NCBI RefSeq assembly: GCF_008329965.1 | Contig: NZ_CP036150.1 | Coordinates: forward strand, 620,001 to 684,000 | Source of the DNA: Oceanispirochaeta crateris | GTDB lineage: Bacteria > Spirochaetota > Spirochaetia > DSM-2461 | Length of the DNA stretch: 64,000 nucleotides | Direction: 5' to 3' | Shown: piece by piece, positions 53,922 through 62,417 of the stretch | Layout of the letters: the number at the start of each line of letters is the position of its first letter | Position numbering within the stretch: position 1 is the first letter of the stretch | Notes under the pieces: model-generated | What the model was told of the DNA's origin: nothing | Databases searched by the model: none | What the model saw: only the letters and a program-made list of their open reading frames with translations | Translations under genes and position numbers: made by a program

Positions 53922-55136
53922 TTAAACGCTCTCATAAATCTCCATCAGATCATCGAAGGGTTCCAGGGCCCTGGGTAATAAGCCGTTGGCCCATGCCAGA
54001 AATAAGCCGTAGTTGAGAACAGGGATATTTCTGGTTCTGAAAATTTCCAGCCGTTCGTCCATGGCTTTCTGGGTGGTCATACAACCCGCACAGTGGATGA
54101 TCATATCCCAGTCTTCCGGGTGTTCCGGGAGGGTTCGGCTATGGGCAAACTCCACGCGTGAACCTACCAGCTGCCGAAAGAGCCTTGGAATTTTCACCGT
54201 TCCCAGGTCTTCGGCCTGTCTGTGATGAGAACAGTATTCCATCACCAGGACCCGGCCGTTTTCAGGGAAATTATCAAGGGCTTTCAGGCTCCTGATGAAA
54301 AAGGCGGGATCTCCTTTTTTACGGGCAAAGAGCAATGAAAAAGAAGTGAGGGGCTGGTCCTCCGGGATATCAGCCGCCACCTTGTGAAAGGCCTGACTGT
54401 CGGTGATCACCAGCGAGGGTTTGATTCCCAAATGATTATAGAAATGATAGAGCTCCCGTTCCTTGACAATCAACGCAGCGCAATCCCTGTCCAGTAAATC
54501 TCTAATGGTTTCCACCTGGGGCATGATAAGCCGTCCGGCGGGAGCCGCAAGGTCAATGGGGGTGACCAGCAGAACCAGATCCTGCTCCTTCACCAGTCCT
54601 TCAACCGGGGTCATCTCTTTTATAAGACTCATGCTGAACTTTTCCATTCTTTTGATAAGCGCCAGAACCGTTTCAGCTTTTGTGTTGTCCACAGTGATCA
54701 GCCGGTCCTTTGGAAAAAAATCTTCTTTTCCATCGGCTCTGTCTCTGTCTGAAAAGGTCAGAACACCCAACCAGGGGCGTTTTTGCTCTTCCAACCAGGC
54801 TTTGAGCTCTCTTTCTTCCTGGCTGGGAGAGCGATCTATGGGACTGACAAAGAGGATCAAATCGGCGCTTTGCATCCGTTCCCGACTCTTTTTTACCCTC
54901 TGTTCACCCAGCTTTCCCAGGTCGTCCAGTCCAGCCGTATCTGTTAGGGCGCACATGCCCAGTTTTCCCAGTTCAATCTTACGGGTCACGGGATCCGTTG
55001 TGGTTCCAGGAACCATGGAGGTAATGGCCACCTCTTTTTGAAAGAGATTATTCATCAGTGAAGATTTACCCGCATTCCTGACCCCTGCCAGTACAATATG
55101 CTGCAGTTCTGCCAGGGCCGTTTCTGTTTGACTCAT
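53922..55136 (-). CDS. hydF: [FeFe]-hydrogenase maturation GTPase HydF
   Basis: This 404-residue scaffold protein carries the H-cluster precursor to the hydrogenase. The N-terminal GTPase domain has G1 GVRNAGKSSL, the TT of G2 in PGTTTDP and G3 DTAGLDDLG. The C-terminal cluster-binding domain has the CxH of EYCSHHR and the HCxxC of IIHCAGC, the ligands of the HydF [4Fe-4S] site. A GGAGG lies upstream of the ATG at 55136; codons further upstream belong to the overlapping aspartase-like gene. It is the last of the four maturation genes and overlaps its neighbour by four bases. Confidence 0.93.
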   Translation of the reverse strand: MSQTETALAELQHIVLAGVRNAGKSSLMNNLFQKEVAITSMVPGTTTDPVTRKIELGKLGMCALTDTAGLDDLGKLGEQRVKKSRERMQSADLILFVSPIDRSPSQEERELKAWLEEQKRPWLGVLTFSDRDRADGKEDFFPKDRLITVDNTKAETVLALIKRMEKFSMSLIKEMTPVEGLVKEQDLVLLVTPIDLAAPAGRLIMPQVETIRDLLDRDCAALIVKERELYHFYNHLGIKPSLVITDSQAFHKVAADIPEDQPLTSFSLLFARKKGDPAFFIRSLKALDNFPENGRVLVMEYCSHHRQAEDLGTVKIPRLFRQLVGSRVEFAHSRTLPEHPEDWDMIIHCAGCMTTQKAMDERLEIFRTRNIPVLNYGLFLAWANGLLPRALEPFDDLMEIYESV

Positions 55137-56461
55137 ATTTTTCCTCCCGAGGTTAAATGGTGTAGATGAAGGCGGTCTTCCAGCTCTTTGAGGTCCATGC
55201 TGCTGTTTTGTGATAACCATTGAATCAGCTCCTGCCTATCTTTTAAACCGGCTTTTCGCAGGAGAGGGAGCAGTTCTTTTACATTCTGGTAACCCAGGGG
55301 CTCCCTCAGAGTATTGATCAGGGCCGATGAATTGACAAGGTGTTCCTCCATGAGGGCTCTATCAGGCTTTAAAGCCGGCAAAAGCCTCTCTGATGCGGTA
55401 GACAGTGCCTTGGAGAGTTTTTCACCCATGCGGATCATATGCTCCGCCATGAAGGGCAAGTAGGCATTGAGCTGCAGTTGACCTTCGCTGGCGTAGCGCT
55501 TGACCAGATCTGCGGAGGAATGAACATCCAGGGACAGACCGCGGATCAGTTCAATCAGCACCGGGTTGGCCTTGGAGGGCATGATGGTAGAGCCAAACTG
55601 CTGCTCCTCCTGGGGAATCTCTCCCAGAAAGGTAGAGGAATAGAGCAGAAGATCTCCGGTCCACTTGATAAGATTTTCGGCGCAGAGGCCTAAAACTCCG
55701 GCGCTTTCTGCCAGCGAATCCCAATGGGCTACCTGGTCGCAGAGGTTTTGACTCCGGCACAAGGGGAGACCCGTAATCCGGCGCAGAGCCTTTTCAGCGG
55801 CAAATACGTATTTTCTGGGGGCGGAGAATCCCGTCCCTACCGCCGTACCTCCCAGAGGAATCAGGCGCAGCCGTTCTCTCACCTTGTTCAGCCTCCAGCG
55901 GTCCCTCTCAACGGGTCCGGCCCAAGCGCCGAAGAGCTGGCCCAGAGTCATGGGCAGGGCATCCTGCATCTCAGTCCTTCCGGTCATGACCCACTCCTGG
56001 TAAAGAGTTTCACGGGACACCAGCTCTTCCTGAAGTCGGATTATTTTTGATTCTATCTCTTCTAAAAGACGGAAGCTCATGAGAATGACCGCCGTTGACA
56101 GGGTGTCGTTAGTGGACTGGTACAGCCCAATATGCTCCAGGGGATGGGCCTTGAACTGACCCTTCGTCCGGCTGTTGCCCAGGGATGACAGGACCTCACA
56201 AAAATTCATATGAAGGCTTGTTCCAGCCCCTCCCTGAGCCAAGGGGAGGGGAAATTGATTGTCATGGTCTCCTCTTATCACCTCAAGTGCCGCATCTTCC
56301 AGCAGGATAAAAAAGTCGGGAGGGTAGAGGGAGGCTTCTTCCTGTTGGGCCCGAATGCAGGCCAGCTTGACCTCTCCGTAGGCCTGTATCAGTTTTCTGG
56401 GGGTCTGTCCCTCACCCAGTATGGCCAGGGCTTTTTCGGTTTCTCTCCCGTAATGCCTCAT
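55133..56461 (-). CDS. Aspartase/fumarase-superfamily lyase in the hyd operon
   Basis: This 442-residue protein has the superfamily signature GSTIMPSKANPV (near residue 296), and GGAGTSLHMNFCE and HPLEHIGLYQSTND in the first two conserved regions. It resembles aspartate ammonia-lyase, which releases ammonia from aspartate. It lies between hydE and hydF with four-base overlaps on both sides, so it is part of the maturation unit; ammonia supply for the dithiomethylamine bridge is an attractive role. Argininosuccinate-lyase-like or fumarase activity cannot be excluded from sequence alone. Confidence 0.85.
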   Translation of the reverse strand: MRHYGRETEKALAILGEGQTPRKLIQAYGEVKLACIRAQQEEASLYPPDFFILLEDAALEVIRGDHDNQFPLPLAQGGAGTSLHMNFCEVLSSLGNSRTKGQFKAHPLEHIGLYQSTNDTLSTAVILMSFRLLEEIESKIIRLQEELVSRETLYQEWVMTGRTEMQDALPMTLGQLFGAWAGPVERDRWRLNKVRERLRLIPLGGTAVGTGFSAPRKYVFAAEKALRRITGLPLCRSQNLCDQVAHWDSLAESAGVLGLCAENLIKWTGDLLLYSSTFLGEIPQEEQQFGSTIMPSKANPVLIELIRGLSLDVHSSADLVKRYASEGQLQLNAYLPFMAEHMIRMGEKLSKALSTASERLLPALKPDRALMEEHLVNSSALINTLREPLGYQNVKELLPLLRKAGLKDRQELIQWLSQNSSMDLKELEDRLHLHHLTSGGKI

Positions 56462-57501
56462 CCTTGTACCCCTTCAAACCGGGGAGGATCGCCCCTGTCA
56501 AAACTAATCTCCCGTCCCAGAGGTCTTATCCTCATGGACAGGCATCCAATACACTGTATTCCGCTTTCATCGAGGCAGATTTTACCCGGATAGAGCTGGT
56601 AGTCCTTTTTGAATTCAATATGGGTCAGGTTGGGCATGAGAACATTTGCTCCGGCGGCAATCATCTGTTCCCTGCCATCCTTACAAAGAGACCCAGCCGC
56701 CGTTGTGGCCGGGATATGAGCCTCGGGAAGGGCCAGTCTCAACAACGCCACACCCCTGATTGATTCTTCTAGGGGCTTTTGAGCTGCCTTACCCAGAGGG
56801 GTCTGTGGGTGAGGGATAAAGGGGCCGATTCCAACCATATCCAGTTTGAGTCTTTGAGCCAAAAGCACATTCTCCAGCCTTGTTTCTGTTCTTTCTCCCG
56901 GCAGTCCCAGCATATAACCGCTGCCTGTTTGGAAACCGGCTTCCCGGATGTATTCCAATGCCATGAGTCGTGCCTTCAGTGTACTTCCATTCCTCACATA
57001 GGCATGAAGTTCAGGATCAGAGGTTTCAAAACGGAGGAGGTAGCGATCGCCGCCGGCAGCCTTCATCTCCTTATATTGGTTGAGGCTTCTCATTCCGCAG
57101 CTCAGGGTGACCGCCGCCTCGCCGCCGGTGAGGGCCTTAATGGCCTCTACCAGACGGCAAATCCTGTCATTGTCAAACTGGGGGTCTTCTCCTCCCTGTA
57201 ACACAAAGGTTCGGATTCCCCTGTCAAAACCGGCTTGAACGGCCTCCAGCAACATCTCCTCTTCAATGCGGTATCGATGAACCTCCCCATTGTCGTGACG
57301 AATCCCGCAATATAGACAGTTGCTCCCGCAATAATTTGTGTATTCCAGCAGTCCCCGGAGAAGAACATGGGGTCCGTGAACCCTGTGGCAAAGCTCTCCA
57401 CCCCTGGTGATGAGCTCTTGTGTGGTGGCATTGTAAAATAGTTCTTTAATCTCTTGTGGACTCAGAGCTTGTGGTCTCTCTTTGTTTTCCATACTTTGCA
57501 T
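56458..57501 (-). CDS. hydE: [FeFe]-hydrogenase maturation radical SAM enzyme HydE
   Basis: This 347-residue radical SAM protein has the CxxxCxxC cluster motif in YCGSNCLYCGIR near residue 57. It also has the TIM-barrel features FVLQGGEDP, SCGMRSLNQYKEMK and RFETSDPELHAY, all characteristic of HydE. It acts on the organometallic precursor made by HydG. Two starts are possible, at 57501 or three codons later at 57492; the AAGG upstream is spaced better for 57492. It follows hydG by four bases. Confidence 0.92.
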   Translation of the reverse strand: MQSMENKERPQALSPQEIKELFYNATTQELITRGGELCHRVHGPHVLLRGLLEYTNYCGSNCLYCGIRHDNGEVHRYRIEEEMLLEAVQAGFDRGIRTFVLQGGEDPQFDNDRICRLVEAIKALTGGEAAVTLSCGMRSLNQYKEMKAAGGDRYLLRFETSDPELHAYVRNGSTLKARLMALEYIREAGFQTGSGYMLGLPGERTETRLENVLLAQRLKLDMVGIGPFIPHPQTPLGKAAQKPLEESIRGVALLRLALPEAHIPATTAAGSLCKDGREQMIAAGANVLMPNLTHIEFKKDYQLYPGKICLDESGIQCIGCLSMRIRPLGREISFDRGDPPRFEGVQG

Positions 57502-57505
57502 AACC

Positions 57506-58888
57506 TTAAAGATAGATGTCCCGCTCGCCGGCGGTTATTTTTTCCAAGGACGATCGTATGTTTCCTTGGACAACAGAATCACTCTCTTCCTCTGTTAGTT
57601 TATTGATCAGAGCAAATCCCTTTTGGCGGGTTTCTTCACCGGCAAAATCCATCAAATACTCCGCAAATGAGACAATCCCGTTGGGAAGGCAGTAGTGTTT
57701 GATCAGTCCCGGTTTCGCAAGATCCATAAAGTCCTGCCCCACACGGCCTTTGCGGTAACAACCCGTACAGAAGGAGGGGATGAATCCCATGCCCACCATA
57801 TCTGCTAAGACCTCTTCCATGCTCCTGTGGTCTCCCAAGGCAAATTGCTGGTTTTCAGCTTCTTTTTCGGTATAACCCCCTATGGAAGTTTTGGAACCGG
57901 CAGAAACCTGGCTCACACCGTATCTGAATAGTTCCTGTCTTAGTTCTGCCGATTCTCTGGTGGAGAGTATGATCCCCGTGTAGGGTAGGGAAAGGCGGAT
58001 GACGGCAATGATGGTTCTGAAGGCGTCGTCATCGACGGGAAAAGGGACATTCTCTGTCAATTCAGAACCGGGAGCAGGCTCAATGCGGGGAACACTGACC
58101 GTATGGGGACCGCAGCCGTATAGCCTCTCCAGCTCTTCGGCATGTCTCATCATAGCCAGTACCTCGAAGCGGTGATCCCCCAGTCCGAAGAGAGCTCCTA
58201 TTCCGACATCATCGATGCCCGCTTCCATGGCGCGGTGCATCACAAACAGTCGGTTTTCATAGTTAGACTTGGGGCCGCTTATATGGTATTTCCTGTAAAG
58301 GTCTGGATCATAGGTTTCCTGAAAACAGATATAGGTGCCGATGCTGCACTCTTTCAGTTCTTTAAACTGATCAACACTCAAAGGGGCTATTTCTACATTG
58401 ACCCTACGAATGGAGGCTCCCTCTTCATTGACCGAATAGATTGTTTTGAGGGACTCTTTGAGGTATGCCAAGGGGTAGTGCCCCGATTCCCCTGAAAGGA
58501 GTAGGAGACGTTTATGCCCTTCCTTTAGAAGCATGCGGGTTTGCTGGGTTATTTCATCCTGATTCAGCTTACGGCGGGCAATATCCTTGTTGTCTTTTCT
58601 AAAACCGCAGTAGAGGCAGTTATTGCTGCAGTGATTGCCCGAATATAAAGGGGCAAAAATCACCATCCGTTTACCGTAAATTGTCTCTTTGGCTTTTTCC
58701 GCAGCGTCCATGATGAGGCGGATCTGTTTTTCGTCTCTTACAGCCAGTAGAGCGGCCGCCTCTTCTGTGTTCAATCCCTTGAGTTTTAAGGCTTTGTCTA
58801 AAATCGCTTCCATTTCCACCTGGTCCGGTGCCCTACGGGATGCCAGTTTTTTGAGCTCGGAGACGTTTAGAAATTCGGGGTAATCCAT
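57506..58888 (-). CDS. hydG: [FeFe]-hydrogenase maturation tyrosine lyase HydG
   Basis: This 460-residue radical SAM enzyme splits tyrosine to give CO and cyanide for the H-cluster. The radical SAM cluster is in HCSNNCLYCGFR (about residue 89). The C-terminal auxiliary cluster is in FCTGCYRKGR and a later Cys in HYCLPNG. The body includes LLLLSGESG and VPRIEPAPGSE. GGAGAG lies upstream of the ATG. It is first in the operon and is preceded by a structured leader of about 90 nt. Confidence 0.95.
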   Translation of the reverse strand: MDYPEFLNVSELKKLASRRAPDQVEMEAILDKALKLKGLNTEEAAALLAVRDEKQIRLIMDAAEKAKETIYGKRMVIFAPLYSGNHCSNNCLYCGFRKDNKDIARRKLNQDEITQQTRMLLKEGHKRLLLLSGESGHYPLAYLKESLKTIYSVNEEGASIRRVNVEIAPLSVDQFKELKECSIGTYICFQETYDPDLYRKYHISGPKSNYENRLFVMHRAMEAGIDDVGIGALFGLGDHRFEVLAMMRHAEELERLYGCGPHTVSVPRIEPAPGSELTENVPFPVDDDAFRTIIAVIRLSLPYTGIILSTRESAELRQELFRYGVSQVSAGSKTSIGGYTEKEAENQQFALGDHRSMEEVLADMVGMGFIPSFCTGCYRKGRVGQDFMDLAKPGLIKHYCLPNGIVSFAEYLMDFAGEETRQKGFALINKLTEEESDSVVQGNIRSSLEKITAGERDIYL

Positions 58889-59322: not shown

Positions 59323-60606
59323 TTAGTCTCTATCCTCACAATCTTGAATGTATTGGCTTCCAAAGACGTTTGAAAGAAGACTGATCAATTTTGTCTTCAA
59401 TGTGGCAAAACCATAGTACTGTAAAGCCAGCATATAGTTTTTTTCGCATATCCTTTTGACCTCATCTGGGTTGTCCAGCAGGTGCTGTACTTCCTTGATG
59501 GTTTCGTCTGTAATAAAATCATCAATCTCGACAACTTCGAAGCCCTTGGGTCTAATATCTGTTGCATAAATGGAATAGTTATTCACCAGAATGGGCTTCT
59601 TAAACCATATGGTTTCCAAAAACGCGTTTCCAAATCCCTCTATCAGGGACGGGTAGGTAACAAAATCGGCATAGGGATAAAGATCCTGAAGGGTATAAAT
59701 TTTGCGGCCATCGGAGGTCCTTCCTCTCTGATCCAAGATGATATCTTCCACAAAGATGGCGCGAACATTCAATAATCGGGCATAATCACGCACCCTCTTT
59801 TCATATTCGAATCCCTCATCTCCCGAAGCATGGGAGATGACAAAGGCCGCCTTCCTATCCAGGCGGGAGACCATTTCCAGAGCGTGTTCTATCCCCTTTC
59901 TCTGGACAACCCTCGTAGGCTGTAGAATCAAAAGTTCATCCTCTTCCACACCGAGGGCCTGACGGATATCGCTGTTATATTCGTCCTTACCGGGAGGGTC
60001 CATCTCAAAATGCATGACATTGGGTATCAGAGTTGATGAAATTCCTGTTCTCAAGGCCAACTGGTTCTGCCCAGAAGTGTTGATTACCACATGCTGAATA
60101 TTCCCGAGGTGGGGAGGATAGCTGGAGTTGATAAAATCCCAGACACAGTTTGTCAGAAACCGTTTTCGTTCCCAGAAAAAGTCGTGATGATGGGCGATGA
60201 TAGGCATACCAGTTTCGGCGGCAAACTCCGTAATGGCCAGACCCAGGGATACATTCAGGGGAATGGTCACCGCATTTTGAGGGATGAGTAAATCAATCTT
60301 GAATTTTTCAACAAACTGATAGAGGACTTTTTTGATTTCCTGGCGCCAGAAATGAAGCTCTCCGGTTAACTCCTCGGGACGGTTCTTCTGACTGAAGCAC
60401 TGCTCATAAATCTTCTTGGTAACGGGGTGCTGAAAATGCAGTTCAGGATATTCCATGGAAACAGCCGGATCACGGTCAAGCTCACCAGCCAGGTAAAAAT
60501 TATGGTTTCCCATATTCTTCAGGACTTCCGCCCATTTTGCAATTTCCAGGCTGACGCCGTCTGTCCCGGCAATTCTGAAGGAAACAAAGCCGATGTTTTT
60601 ATTCAT
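59323..60606 (-). CDS. GT4-family glycosyltransferase
   Basis: This 427-residue GT-B enzyme has an N-terminal domain starting GFVSFRIAGTDGVSLE. Its donor-binding domain has LQPTRVVQRKGIEHALEM and the loop YPSLIEGFGNAFLETIW. The N-terminal GTDGVSLE turn and the conserved HHHDFFWERKRF are unusual for polymer glycosyltransferases and may mark a small-molecule or compatible-solute type, such as those making mannosylglucosylglycerate; I cannot confirm that. GGAG lies upstream of the ATG. The neighbouring divergent HAD phosphatase and the GH2 beta-mannosidase fit a mannose-related role. Confidence 0.8.
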   Translation of the reverse strand: MNKNIGFVSFRIAGTDGVSLEIAKWAEVLKNMGNHNFYLAGELDRDPAVSMEYPELHFQHPVTKKIYEQCFSQKNRPEELTGELHFWRQEIKKVLYQFVEKFKIDLLIPQNAVTIPLNVSLGLAITEFAAETGMPIIAHHHDFFWERKRFLTNCVWDFINSSYPPHLGNIQHVVINTSGQNQLALRTGISSTLIPNVMHFEMDPPGKDEYNSDIRQALGVEEDELLILQPTRVVQRKGIEHALEMVSRLDRKAAFVISHASGDEGFEYEKRVRDYARLLNVRAIFVEDIILDQRGRTSDGRKIYTLQDLYPYADFVTYPSLIEGFGNAFLETIWFKKPILVNNYSIYATDIRPKGFEVVEIDDFITDETIKEVQHLLDNPDEVKRICEKNYMLALQYYGFATLKTKLISLLSNVFGSQYIQDCEDRD

Positions 60607-60753: not shown

Positions 60754-61434
60754 ATGAAAAAATGCATTCACTCAGTGCCTGAGAATATCAGGTTGGCCTT
60801 TTTTGACCTGGATGAGACTCTGACATCACGGGATACAGATTTGCTCTGGGCACAATGGCGGAGCCGTAGGAGTCTTAAGGGGCTTCTGGATTTGTGGAGG
60901 CTGAGAAAAATTAACAGGCTCTATTACAAGCACTCACTGACTGATATAGAATACGGAGCCTATCATCTCGCCAGAGCCAGGTCCATGACGGTTCAGCAGT
61001 ACCACAATTTGGCTCAGGCCTTTGCCTTATTTGTTTCTAAAAAGTACATCTATAGGGAGATGAAAGATCTCCTGGAGGAAAATAAGCAAAAAGGGATCAG
61101 CAATGTTCTGATCACCGCACAGGATGCTGTGATCGCTGCGGCTCTGCAGAAGGTTTTAGGACTTGAGGATTGCCTCGCCAGCGATTATTGTGTGGATGGT
61201 AATGCGTTTACCGCTATGAGACAGCCCCTTTGTTTCAAAGAGGGTAAAGTCCATTGGGCCGGCCTTTATCTGAAACAGAAGTCTCTGAGTTGGGATCAGT
61301 GTGCTTTTTATACTGACAGCCTGAACGATCTACCCCTTCTGGAAGCCTGTGCCTGTCCCGTTGCCGTTCATCCAGGACCGGAACTGGAATCTTTGTCCCG
61401 GGAACGTTGCTGGTGTATTCTCAAACCGGTTTAA
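60754..61434 (+). CDS. HAD-IB family phosphatase
   Basis: This 226-residue hydrolase shows HAD motif I FFDLDETLT (nucleophile Asp at residue 17), motif II Thr in VLITAQD, motif III Lys in CFKEGKVHW and motif IV YTDSLNDLPLL. The helical cap after motif I is of the SerB/CicA subclass. It would hydrolyse a small phosphate ester; the substrate is unknown. It is divergent from the glycosyltransferase at 59323-60606 and may be its partner phosphatase. Confidence 0.85.
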   Translation: MKKCIHSVPENIRLAFFDLDETLTSRDTDLLWAQWRSRRSLKGLLDLWRLRKINRLYYKHSLTDIEYGAYHLARARSMTVQQYHNLAQAFALFVSKKYIYREMKDLLEENKQKGISNVLITAQDAVIAAALQKVLGLEDCLASDYCVDGNAFTAMRQPLCFKEGKVHWAGLYLKQKSLSWDQCAFYTDSLNDLPLLEACACPVAVHPGPELESLSRERCWCILKPV

Positions 61435-61460: not shown

Positions 61461-62417
61461 TTAGAAAAGTTCTATGGTCCCTTCCTCAACAAGGTCCTGA
61501 TAATCATATTCTGCGGCCATGTTAGGATTCCAACTGAGGTTGAAAATGAATTTTTGAACGATCCTTGTCTGTCTTTTGAGTCCGCCGGGTTCCTTTATGA
61601 TGTACTCAAAACAGAGTTGAGGAATATCTCCTCCAAAAGAGATGTTTCTCAGCTTATGATTCACAAGAATGGGAACCTGTATGTCCGGACCGCTCTCCTC
61701 AAGAAATCCCTCTTTGAGAAAGACTGTTTTAAAACTTCCCCAAAATAGATTTGTAAGTTCACTGATGATAGGAGGAACTACTTCGTCAATACTTCCCCTG
61801 AAGGCTGGATTTTTCATAGTTCCAAGAATTTCATGGAGTTCTCTCATATCGCACTGGAGCATGAGGTAACCACGGCACCAGTTTGTATTGACAGGAATGA
61901 GAGATGTTATTTCTCCATAGATAACCTTGTCTCTGATCATGAGGGGAGGGAGGCTGTGAACTACGGCCTCGGGGATCATGGCTTTGATTGAATGGATTGA
62001 AAAATTCTGAATGTGACGAATCATTTCTAAGGGATAGTCGCGGATAAAAATATGAGTTTTTAAGTACTGGCTGATTTTCTCTTCTTCATTGATATGAAAT
62101 AGGCCGTCGAAGTACCATGCCATTTCGGTGGGTATCTCATCTGCCTCAGAAGGTTCTTCAACACGCAGAAACAAGGGAAGTTCCGGTCTGATTTCTTTTA
62201 TGCGGACCGATAAATCCTTCCAATTTCCCCTGTTATTCACAAAGATGGCTCCAAGAAGTATGTTTTTATCCAGTATGATATGAATAATCGATGGATCTCC
62301 CACAGAACGAATCCCACTGAGATGGTTAGCATCGAAAATTTTTCTCAGTTGTGGAAGAACAGTCATATCCGTATCAAATGTGAGCACCTTGCTCTTGATC
62401 ATATTAGTTCTAACCAT
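61461..62417 (-). CDS. CheX-like chemotaxis phosphatase with a degenerate receiver domain
   Basis: This 318-residue protein has an N-terminal half (about 1-125) with the alternating pattern of a receiver domain, but no clear phospho-acceptor Asp is visible. The C-terminal half (about 160-310) is CheX-like: EITSLIPVNTNW, then the catalytic ExxN of ISELTNLFWGSF and a closing ISFGGDIPQLCFEY. CheX in spirochaetes dephosphorylates CheY. The fusion may be recruited by CheA or another partner through the degenerate domain. The start has GGGAG upstream. No other che gene is adjacent. Confidence 0.75.
   Translation of the reverse strand: MVRTNMIKSKVLTFDTDMTVLPQLRKIFDANHLSGIRSVGDPSIIHIILDKNILLGAIFVNNRGNWKDLSVRIKEIRPELPLFLRVEEPSEADEIPTEMAWYFDGLFHINEEEKISQYLKTHIFIRDYPLEMIRHIQNFSIHSIKAMIPEAVVHSLPPLMIRDKVIYGEITSLIPVNTNWCRGYLMLQCDMRELHEILGTMKNPAFRGSIDEVVPPIISELTNLFWGSFKTVFLKEGFLEESGPDIQVPILVNHKLRNISFGGDIPQLCFEYIIKEPGGLKRQTRIVQKFIFNLSWNPNMAAEYDYQDLVEEGTIELF

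Follow-up and report, generated by a model that had tools for sequence, protein, structure and literature searches.

A HydF-associated lyase of the aspartase/fumarase superfamily in the hydrogenase maturation operon of Oceanispirochaeta crateris

The [FeFe]-hydrogenase maturation operon of Oceanispirochaeta crateris contains, besides hydG, hydE and hydF, a gene for a 442-residue lyase of the aspartase/fumarase superfamily. We propose that this protein probably releases ammonia specifically for the work of HydF, as an ammonia-lyase that would act most likely on L-aspartate, belong to a distinct group of the superfamily and let the nitrogen of the H-cluster bridge come from an amino acid. The genome is one contig of 4,012,482 bases (NZ_CP036150.1), and the operon lies in a stretch of 64,000 nucleotides at 0.620–0.684 Mb (hereafter the window, whose own numbering is used for gene coordinates). 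The proposal is based on the operon, homology, a conserved active site, separation from AspA, linkage to HydF across genomes and occurrence in genomes without the T- and H-proteins of the glycine cleavage system (GCS); the substrate and activity of the window lyase, and a local delivery of ammonia, are what we infer from them. The origin of the bridging amine of the H-cluster is a live question.

Operon layout and identity of the lyase

One operon, read from the minus strand (53922–58888), comprises the four genes in the order hydG, hydE, lyase, hydF. HydG (57506–58888; encoded by the operon's first gene, a radical S-adenosylmethionine (SAM) maturase and tyrosine lyase), HydE (56458–57501; also a radical SAM maturase) and HydF (53922–55136; maturation GTPase and scaffold) all score above their NCBIfam equivalog cut-offs (498 bits for TIGR03955, cut-off 312; 322 bits for TIGR03956, cut-off 255; 453 bits for TIGR03918, cut-off 326), which identifies a HydEFG maturation operon. 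The lyase (55133–56461) matches PF00206 with 185 bits (E 2e-54). As the original prediction had it, its gene overlaps both neighbors by four bases: one ATGA holds the hydE stop and the lyase start (56458–56461), and another the lyase stop and the hydF start (55133–55136). The prediction had read coupled translation, and with it a role in maturation, from these overlaps; the overlaps are real, but an overlap alone implies no role. ATGA overlaps are common in operons and by themselves weak proof; the evidence is the recurrence of the arrangement elsewhere.

We place the hydF start at 55136 and not at the upstream ATG (55220) given by the open reading frame lister, because a GGAGG, the likely hydF ribosome-binding site within the lyase gene (55143–55147), is six bases upstream and because that start gives the HydF match; the longer frame has an 88-base overlap with the lyase gene. 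A promoter/terminator scan found no excess of sites over shuffled sequence (5 versus 4.8 and 8 versus 7.7), and we claim no transcript ends. All five [FeFe]-hydrogenase (PF02906) genes found by a whole-genome search (at 0.24, 2.75, 2.76, 3.37 and 3.91 Mb) map outside the window, which bears out the earlier statement that it holds no hydrogenase structural gene.

Several members of the superfamily were considered as the identity of the lyase. Plain AspA is ruled out by score (208 bits against the equivalog TIGR00839, cut-off 681) and by tree; class II fumarase by score (199 bits against fumC TIGR00979, cut-off 665), by residue 188 (AspB numbering, see below) and by tree; and argininosuccinate and adenylosuccinate lyases by scores far below the cut-offs (argH TIGR00838, 80 bits, cut-off 280; purB TIGR00928, 78 bits, cut-off 326). 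The fold does not separate aspartases from fumarases: the AlphaFold2 model of the lyase (mean predicted local distance difference test score 90.7) matches both at Z about 45 (27–29% identity with aspartases), with Z going from 45.3 to 43.7 over the 50 matches listed and adjacent rows tied. Residue 1 of the model aligns with residue 20 of AspB, so the N-terminus is about 20 residues shorter.

In AspB, Ser318 is catalytic, the pocket for the alpha-carboxylate is made up of Thr187, Met321, Lys324 and Asn326, and the amine is also contacted by His188 and Asn142 (PMC11744663). By alignment, Ser318 corresponds to S291 of the window lyase (codon 55589–55591), and His188, also His in FumC, to E164 (codon 55970–55972). 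The AspB-numbered residues T101, S140, T141, N142, T187, S318, M321, K324, N326 and E331 are kept in all 43 hyd lyases compared, and the catalytic and pocket residues examined are invariant among them except at positions 188 and 319. At position 188 the hyd lyases have Glu (26, including the window lyase) or Gln (17) and never His, versus His (38) or Gln (23, including E. coli AspA) in 61 other family members. Since position 188 is never His and the pocket residues are kept, the lyase is predicted to act as an ammonia-lyase and not as a fumarase.

The hyd lyases share a signature, R-x-[R/W]-W-R, which the window lyase carries as R186-D-R-W-R190 (AspB 210–214; codons 55892–55906). Its Trp (W189 in the window lyase, AspB position 213) is found in 43 out of 43 hyd lyases and in none of the 61 others; K193 is found in 43 versus two and R188 in 42 versus five. 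The residues W189, K193, R188, R197, E151 and R236 are fixed in the group, and AspA and FumC have them rarely or not at all. We built trees of 85 proteins (21 of the 80 loci from the contig-wide search described below were omitted to thin near-copies) and of 103 proteins (including AspB and AspA-type proteins from hyd-lyase genomes and clostridia; L136_G087 was omitted for its long branch). E. coli AspA, AspB and all FumC are on one side of a branch with a Shimodaira–Hasegawa-like approximate likelihood ratio support of 99, and the hyd-linked lyases are all outside. Both trees are unrooted and come from short searches with no bootstrap, and therefore we claim a separation and not a proven single clade. 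There is one exception to the separation: the lyase of a cattle-gut proteobacterial metagenome-assembled genome (L119) is placed among the hyd lyases by both trees, although it has RDFIR in place of the signature and 17 kb of sequence around it shows no hyd genes. It may be a derived member with another job.

These sequence comparisons set the hyd-linked lyase apart from AspA proper and put it in a distinct HydF-associated group; as far as our searches show, this group and its signature are new relative to the literature found. Some lyase-bearing genomes have a second gene of AspA type, above the AspA cut-off in two (G150 and G154) and just below it in two more (G151, 666 bits; G155, 673 bits). 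In several genomes, G150 and G154 among them, there are two or three genes of aspartase/fumarase type, including a hyd-linked one, so that automatic 'aspA' labels there are likely to be mixed. Splitting the group from AspA corrects the annotation and points to an enzyme for assay in place of E. coli AspA.

Linkage to HydF across genomes

A survey of hyd operons for the same lyase had been suggested as a check on the original prediction, and it came out in two ways: the lyase keeps to hyd genes, but many HydF genomes have no lyase adjacent to hydF. A match to the window protein at E ≤ 1e-60 was found in 22 out of 149 genomes in the phylum, and each of these 22 copies has hyd neighbors. hydF is within 2 kb in 21 of them; the remaining copy (G067) has hydE and hydG beside it, and hydF is not on its 7.4-kb contig. 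In a 23rd genome (G087), added by hand, the lyase next to hydF is a divergent one (RFRWR). An adjacent lyase is found in 21 out of 55 HydF-bearing genomes of the phylum, with G026 and G067 coming on top, and in only seven out of 83 HydF genomes of the class of Clostridium caldaquaticum. G026, a closed genome, has an intact lyase beside a HydF in two pieces that is below cut-off (L288); the split may be a frameshift, a sequencing error or decay.

The signature marks the linked copies. A contig-wide search (query A1) listed 80 loci, mostly ordinary AspA/FumC, which serve as an outgroup and not as a census of the group. Among these matches listed, 16 have the signature (15) or an RDWWR variant (L053), and in 15 of the 16 the stretch includes a hyd gene (the exception, L052, is at a contig end), versus none of the 64 without the signature. 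In the Clostridium caldaquaticum class (38 matches, 30 of them shown as loci), all seven signature-bearing loci are beside hydF and none of the 23 others is.

Gene neighborhoods were then compared for loci centred on a signature-bearing lyase. Out of 40 loci considered 37 were counted (the script found no centre in L284, L049 and L053, though the signature or its variant is seen in the latter two). HydF is near the lyase in 36 of the 37, and HydG or HydE in 25 (counted jointly, as one protein cluster merges both); the usual order is lyase then hydF, frequently overlapping, and the pairing is seen in several phyla. The partner of the lyase is therefore HydF, where the bridge is made. TM1266-like regulators recur in 10 of the 37 loci, and the other recurrent neighbor clusters examined have mostly generic domains (PAS, histidine-kinase, response-regulator and ABC transporter).

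Lyase and HydF in genomes without T- and H-protein

In O. crateris the gcvT-gcvH-gcvPA-gcvPB cluster is complete and lies some 40 kb ahead of the window. Other lyase-bearing genomes differ: gcvT (TIGR00528, E ≤ 1e-40) is found in 11 of the 23 and gcvH (TIGR00527, E ≤ 1e-15) in 15, and eight (G010, G015, G026, G045, G064, G092, G104 and G087) have neither at these thresholds. A lax search with PF01597 (E ≤ 1e-3) gave no match in the other seven and no more than a 21.7-bit fragment in G087; profile searches do not prove absence, however, and could miss a carrier that has diverged far. The G026 assembly is one contig, 99% complete. A strong HydA match (E ≤ 1e-60) is present in seven of the eight, all except G092. 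Feeding ammonia into the GCS, the published route, therefore cannot be all that the lyase is used for. As far as searches show, lyase-carrying genomes without detectable T- and H-protein are likewise new relative to the literature found.

The same lack is seen in genus g20, where 18 HydF genomes have no adjacent lyase and gcvT and gcvH were found in none; the lax PF01597 search of nine of these genomes gave one match (G098, 20.4 bits), and HydA was found at E ≤ 1e-60 in eight of the nine examined. The g20 genomes have hydG-hydF-hydE clusters (e.g. L167 and L168), and their bridge synthesis must use something other than T- and H-protein. By profile search, then, HydA and HydF often occur in the phylum without detectable T- or H-protein, with or without the lyase. 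Aminomethyl-lipoyl-H-protein has been called an in vivo requirement (PMC12752695); this model therefore needs an alternative in the phylum, and natural genomes with HydA, HydF and lyase and no detectable H-protein offer a direct test of it. From the report that formaldehyde can stand in for serine plus serine hydroxymethyltransferase in vitro, with T-protein still added (PMC13339137), a less GCS-dependent route to the bridge seems chemically thinkable.

Proposed function, alternatives and known systems

That ammonia from the lyase serves the bridging amine, as the original prediction suggested, is in outline a hypothesis already in print, and a relative has been used to test part of it. A position of aspA next to hydF was reported by Pagnier et al. 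(2024, J Biol Chem, PMC11736057): among 887 hydF genes with hyd neighbors, 701 have aspA, ilvA or sdaA (by Pfam domain) within 20 open reading frames. They showed in vitro that 15N-aspartate with E. coli AspA puts label into the bridge nitrogen, and that free NH4+ supports maturation. This supports the suggestion, although the window lyase itself is outside the AspA equivalog. The accessible text of that paper mentions neither a separation of these lyases from AspA nor their occurrence without T- and H-protein; the titles and abstract openings found in our literature searches, which mostly leave subscription papers uncovered, mention no separate lyase group and no HydF genomes without GCS.

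In the mechanism we propose, the lyase would be translated together with HydF and would deaminate an amino acid, most likely L-aspartate, so that ammonium would be released at HydF, which would build the dithiomethylamine (azadithiolate) bridge with nitrogen from that amino acid. Where T- and H-protein are present, as in O. crateris, the ammonium would probably take the published way in, via these proteins; in genomes that lack them, it would have to be used at HydF by another route. It is conceivable, if rather doubtful, that ammonia passes straight from the lyase to HydF, which would make the lyase a fourth, dedicated partner of maturase type, and that the bridge can be assembled without GCS; in lyase-bearing genomes without T- and H-protein, a one-carbon source together with HydF and the lyase would then replace the T-protein and aminomethyl-lipoyl-H-protein of the published in vitro system.

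Several observations weigh against the main proposal, an ammonia-lyase dedicated to HydF. The lyase is far below the AspA equivalog cut-off, and E. coli AspA, the enzyme tested in print, sits in the other tree group. An adjacent lyase is absent in 34 of the 55 HydF-bearing genomes of the phylum and in 76 of the 83 of the Clostridium caldaquaticum class; seven out of 83 is well below the 'most' of the published account (PMC11736057), though that account counts other lyases and wider neighborhoods. In three genera (g25, g13 and g29) one genome keeps hydF without the lyase and another has it (without versus with: G014 versus G026 and G045; G001 versus G067; G030 versus G018), so the lyase is dispensable, which is what one would expect if free ammonium usually suffices. 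Here 'without' means no match at E ≤ 1e-60 to the window protein, a call that could miss more divergent copies away from hydF, and some of the lyase-minus hydF genes are near contig ends (e.g. in G021, G030 and G088). We also examined the association of lyase and GCS as a test of the published route: among HydF genomes, gcvH is found in 15 of 23 with the lyase versus eight of 34 without (p 0.0025), but the association vanishes when the over-sampled genus g20 is removed (15 of 23 versus eight of 16, p 0.51).

Other functions were weighed. The lyase may be a fumarase or aspartase of central metabolism merely sitting in the operon, with its fumarate used for anaerobic respiration or succinate formation; the fold is that of fumarase, and fumarate could be an electron acceptor (PMC11736057). 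This is unlikely, however: no hyd lyase has His188, AspA-type genes are present besides the lyase in the four genomes noted above, the pairing with HydF spans several phyla, and the signature or variant loci among the matches listed all have a hyd gene except the one at a contig end. The group-specific Trp, Arg and Lys positions, which are outside the pocket residues named for AspB (PMC11744663), together with the constant HydF partner, would suit a structural or regulatory protein that docks to HydF via an Arg/Trp helix and for which catalysis is secondary; with the catalytic and pocket residues examined invariant in 43 out of 43 (bar positions 188 and 319), we give this little credence.

The substrate may also be something other than aspartate, or an adduct: by analogy with adenylosuccinate and argininosuccinate lyases, fumarate would be removed from an N-succinyl intermediate toward the bridge, and nitrogen would be given without free ammonia. 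Such chemistry would fit a separate group with its six fixed residues, and the persistence of the lyase without T- and H-protein, where nitrogen would have to be delivered in another way. It seems improbable, nevertheless, as the AspB alpha-carboxylate pocket (T187, M321, K324 and N326) is unchanged in all 43 hyd lyases, the argH and purB scores are low, the signature is about 22 residues along the helix from pocket residues T163 and E164 (AlphaFold2 model and alignment), and free NH4+ sustains maturation in vitro (PMC11736057).

Elsewhere in the window, a glycosyltransferase gene (59323–60606; best NCBIfam match mannosylglucosylglycerate synthase, 251 bits, below the cut-off of 640) is divergent from a HAD phosphatase gene (60754–61434), possibly a compatible-solute pair, and 61461–62417 encodes a 318-residue protein with a CheX-like C-terminal domain, an unassigned N-terminal half and no NCBIfam match.

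Among known systems, the lyase shares with AspA and AspB (TIGR00839; PDB 1jsw, 1j3u and 3r6v) the fold, the catalytic Ser and the alpha-carboxylate pocket, but differs in Glu at position 188, the R-x-[R/W]-W-R signature and, in its subgroup, a shorter N-terminus. With FumC (TIGR00979) it has the fold and the SS-loop in common, but it lacks His188 and belongs to another tree group; with argininosuccinate and adenylosuccinate lyases it shares the superfamily, at scores far below cut-off. The closest system is that of Pagnier et al. (PMC11736057), in which a lyase-type gene beside hydF was also proposed to supply the bridge nitrogen: there aspA was assigned by Pfam and E. coli AspA assayed, whereas the hyd-linked lyases described here separate from E. 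coli AspA, and the O. crateris operon is a new case of this known arrangement.

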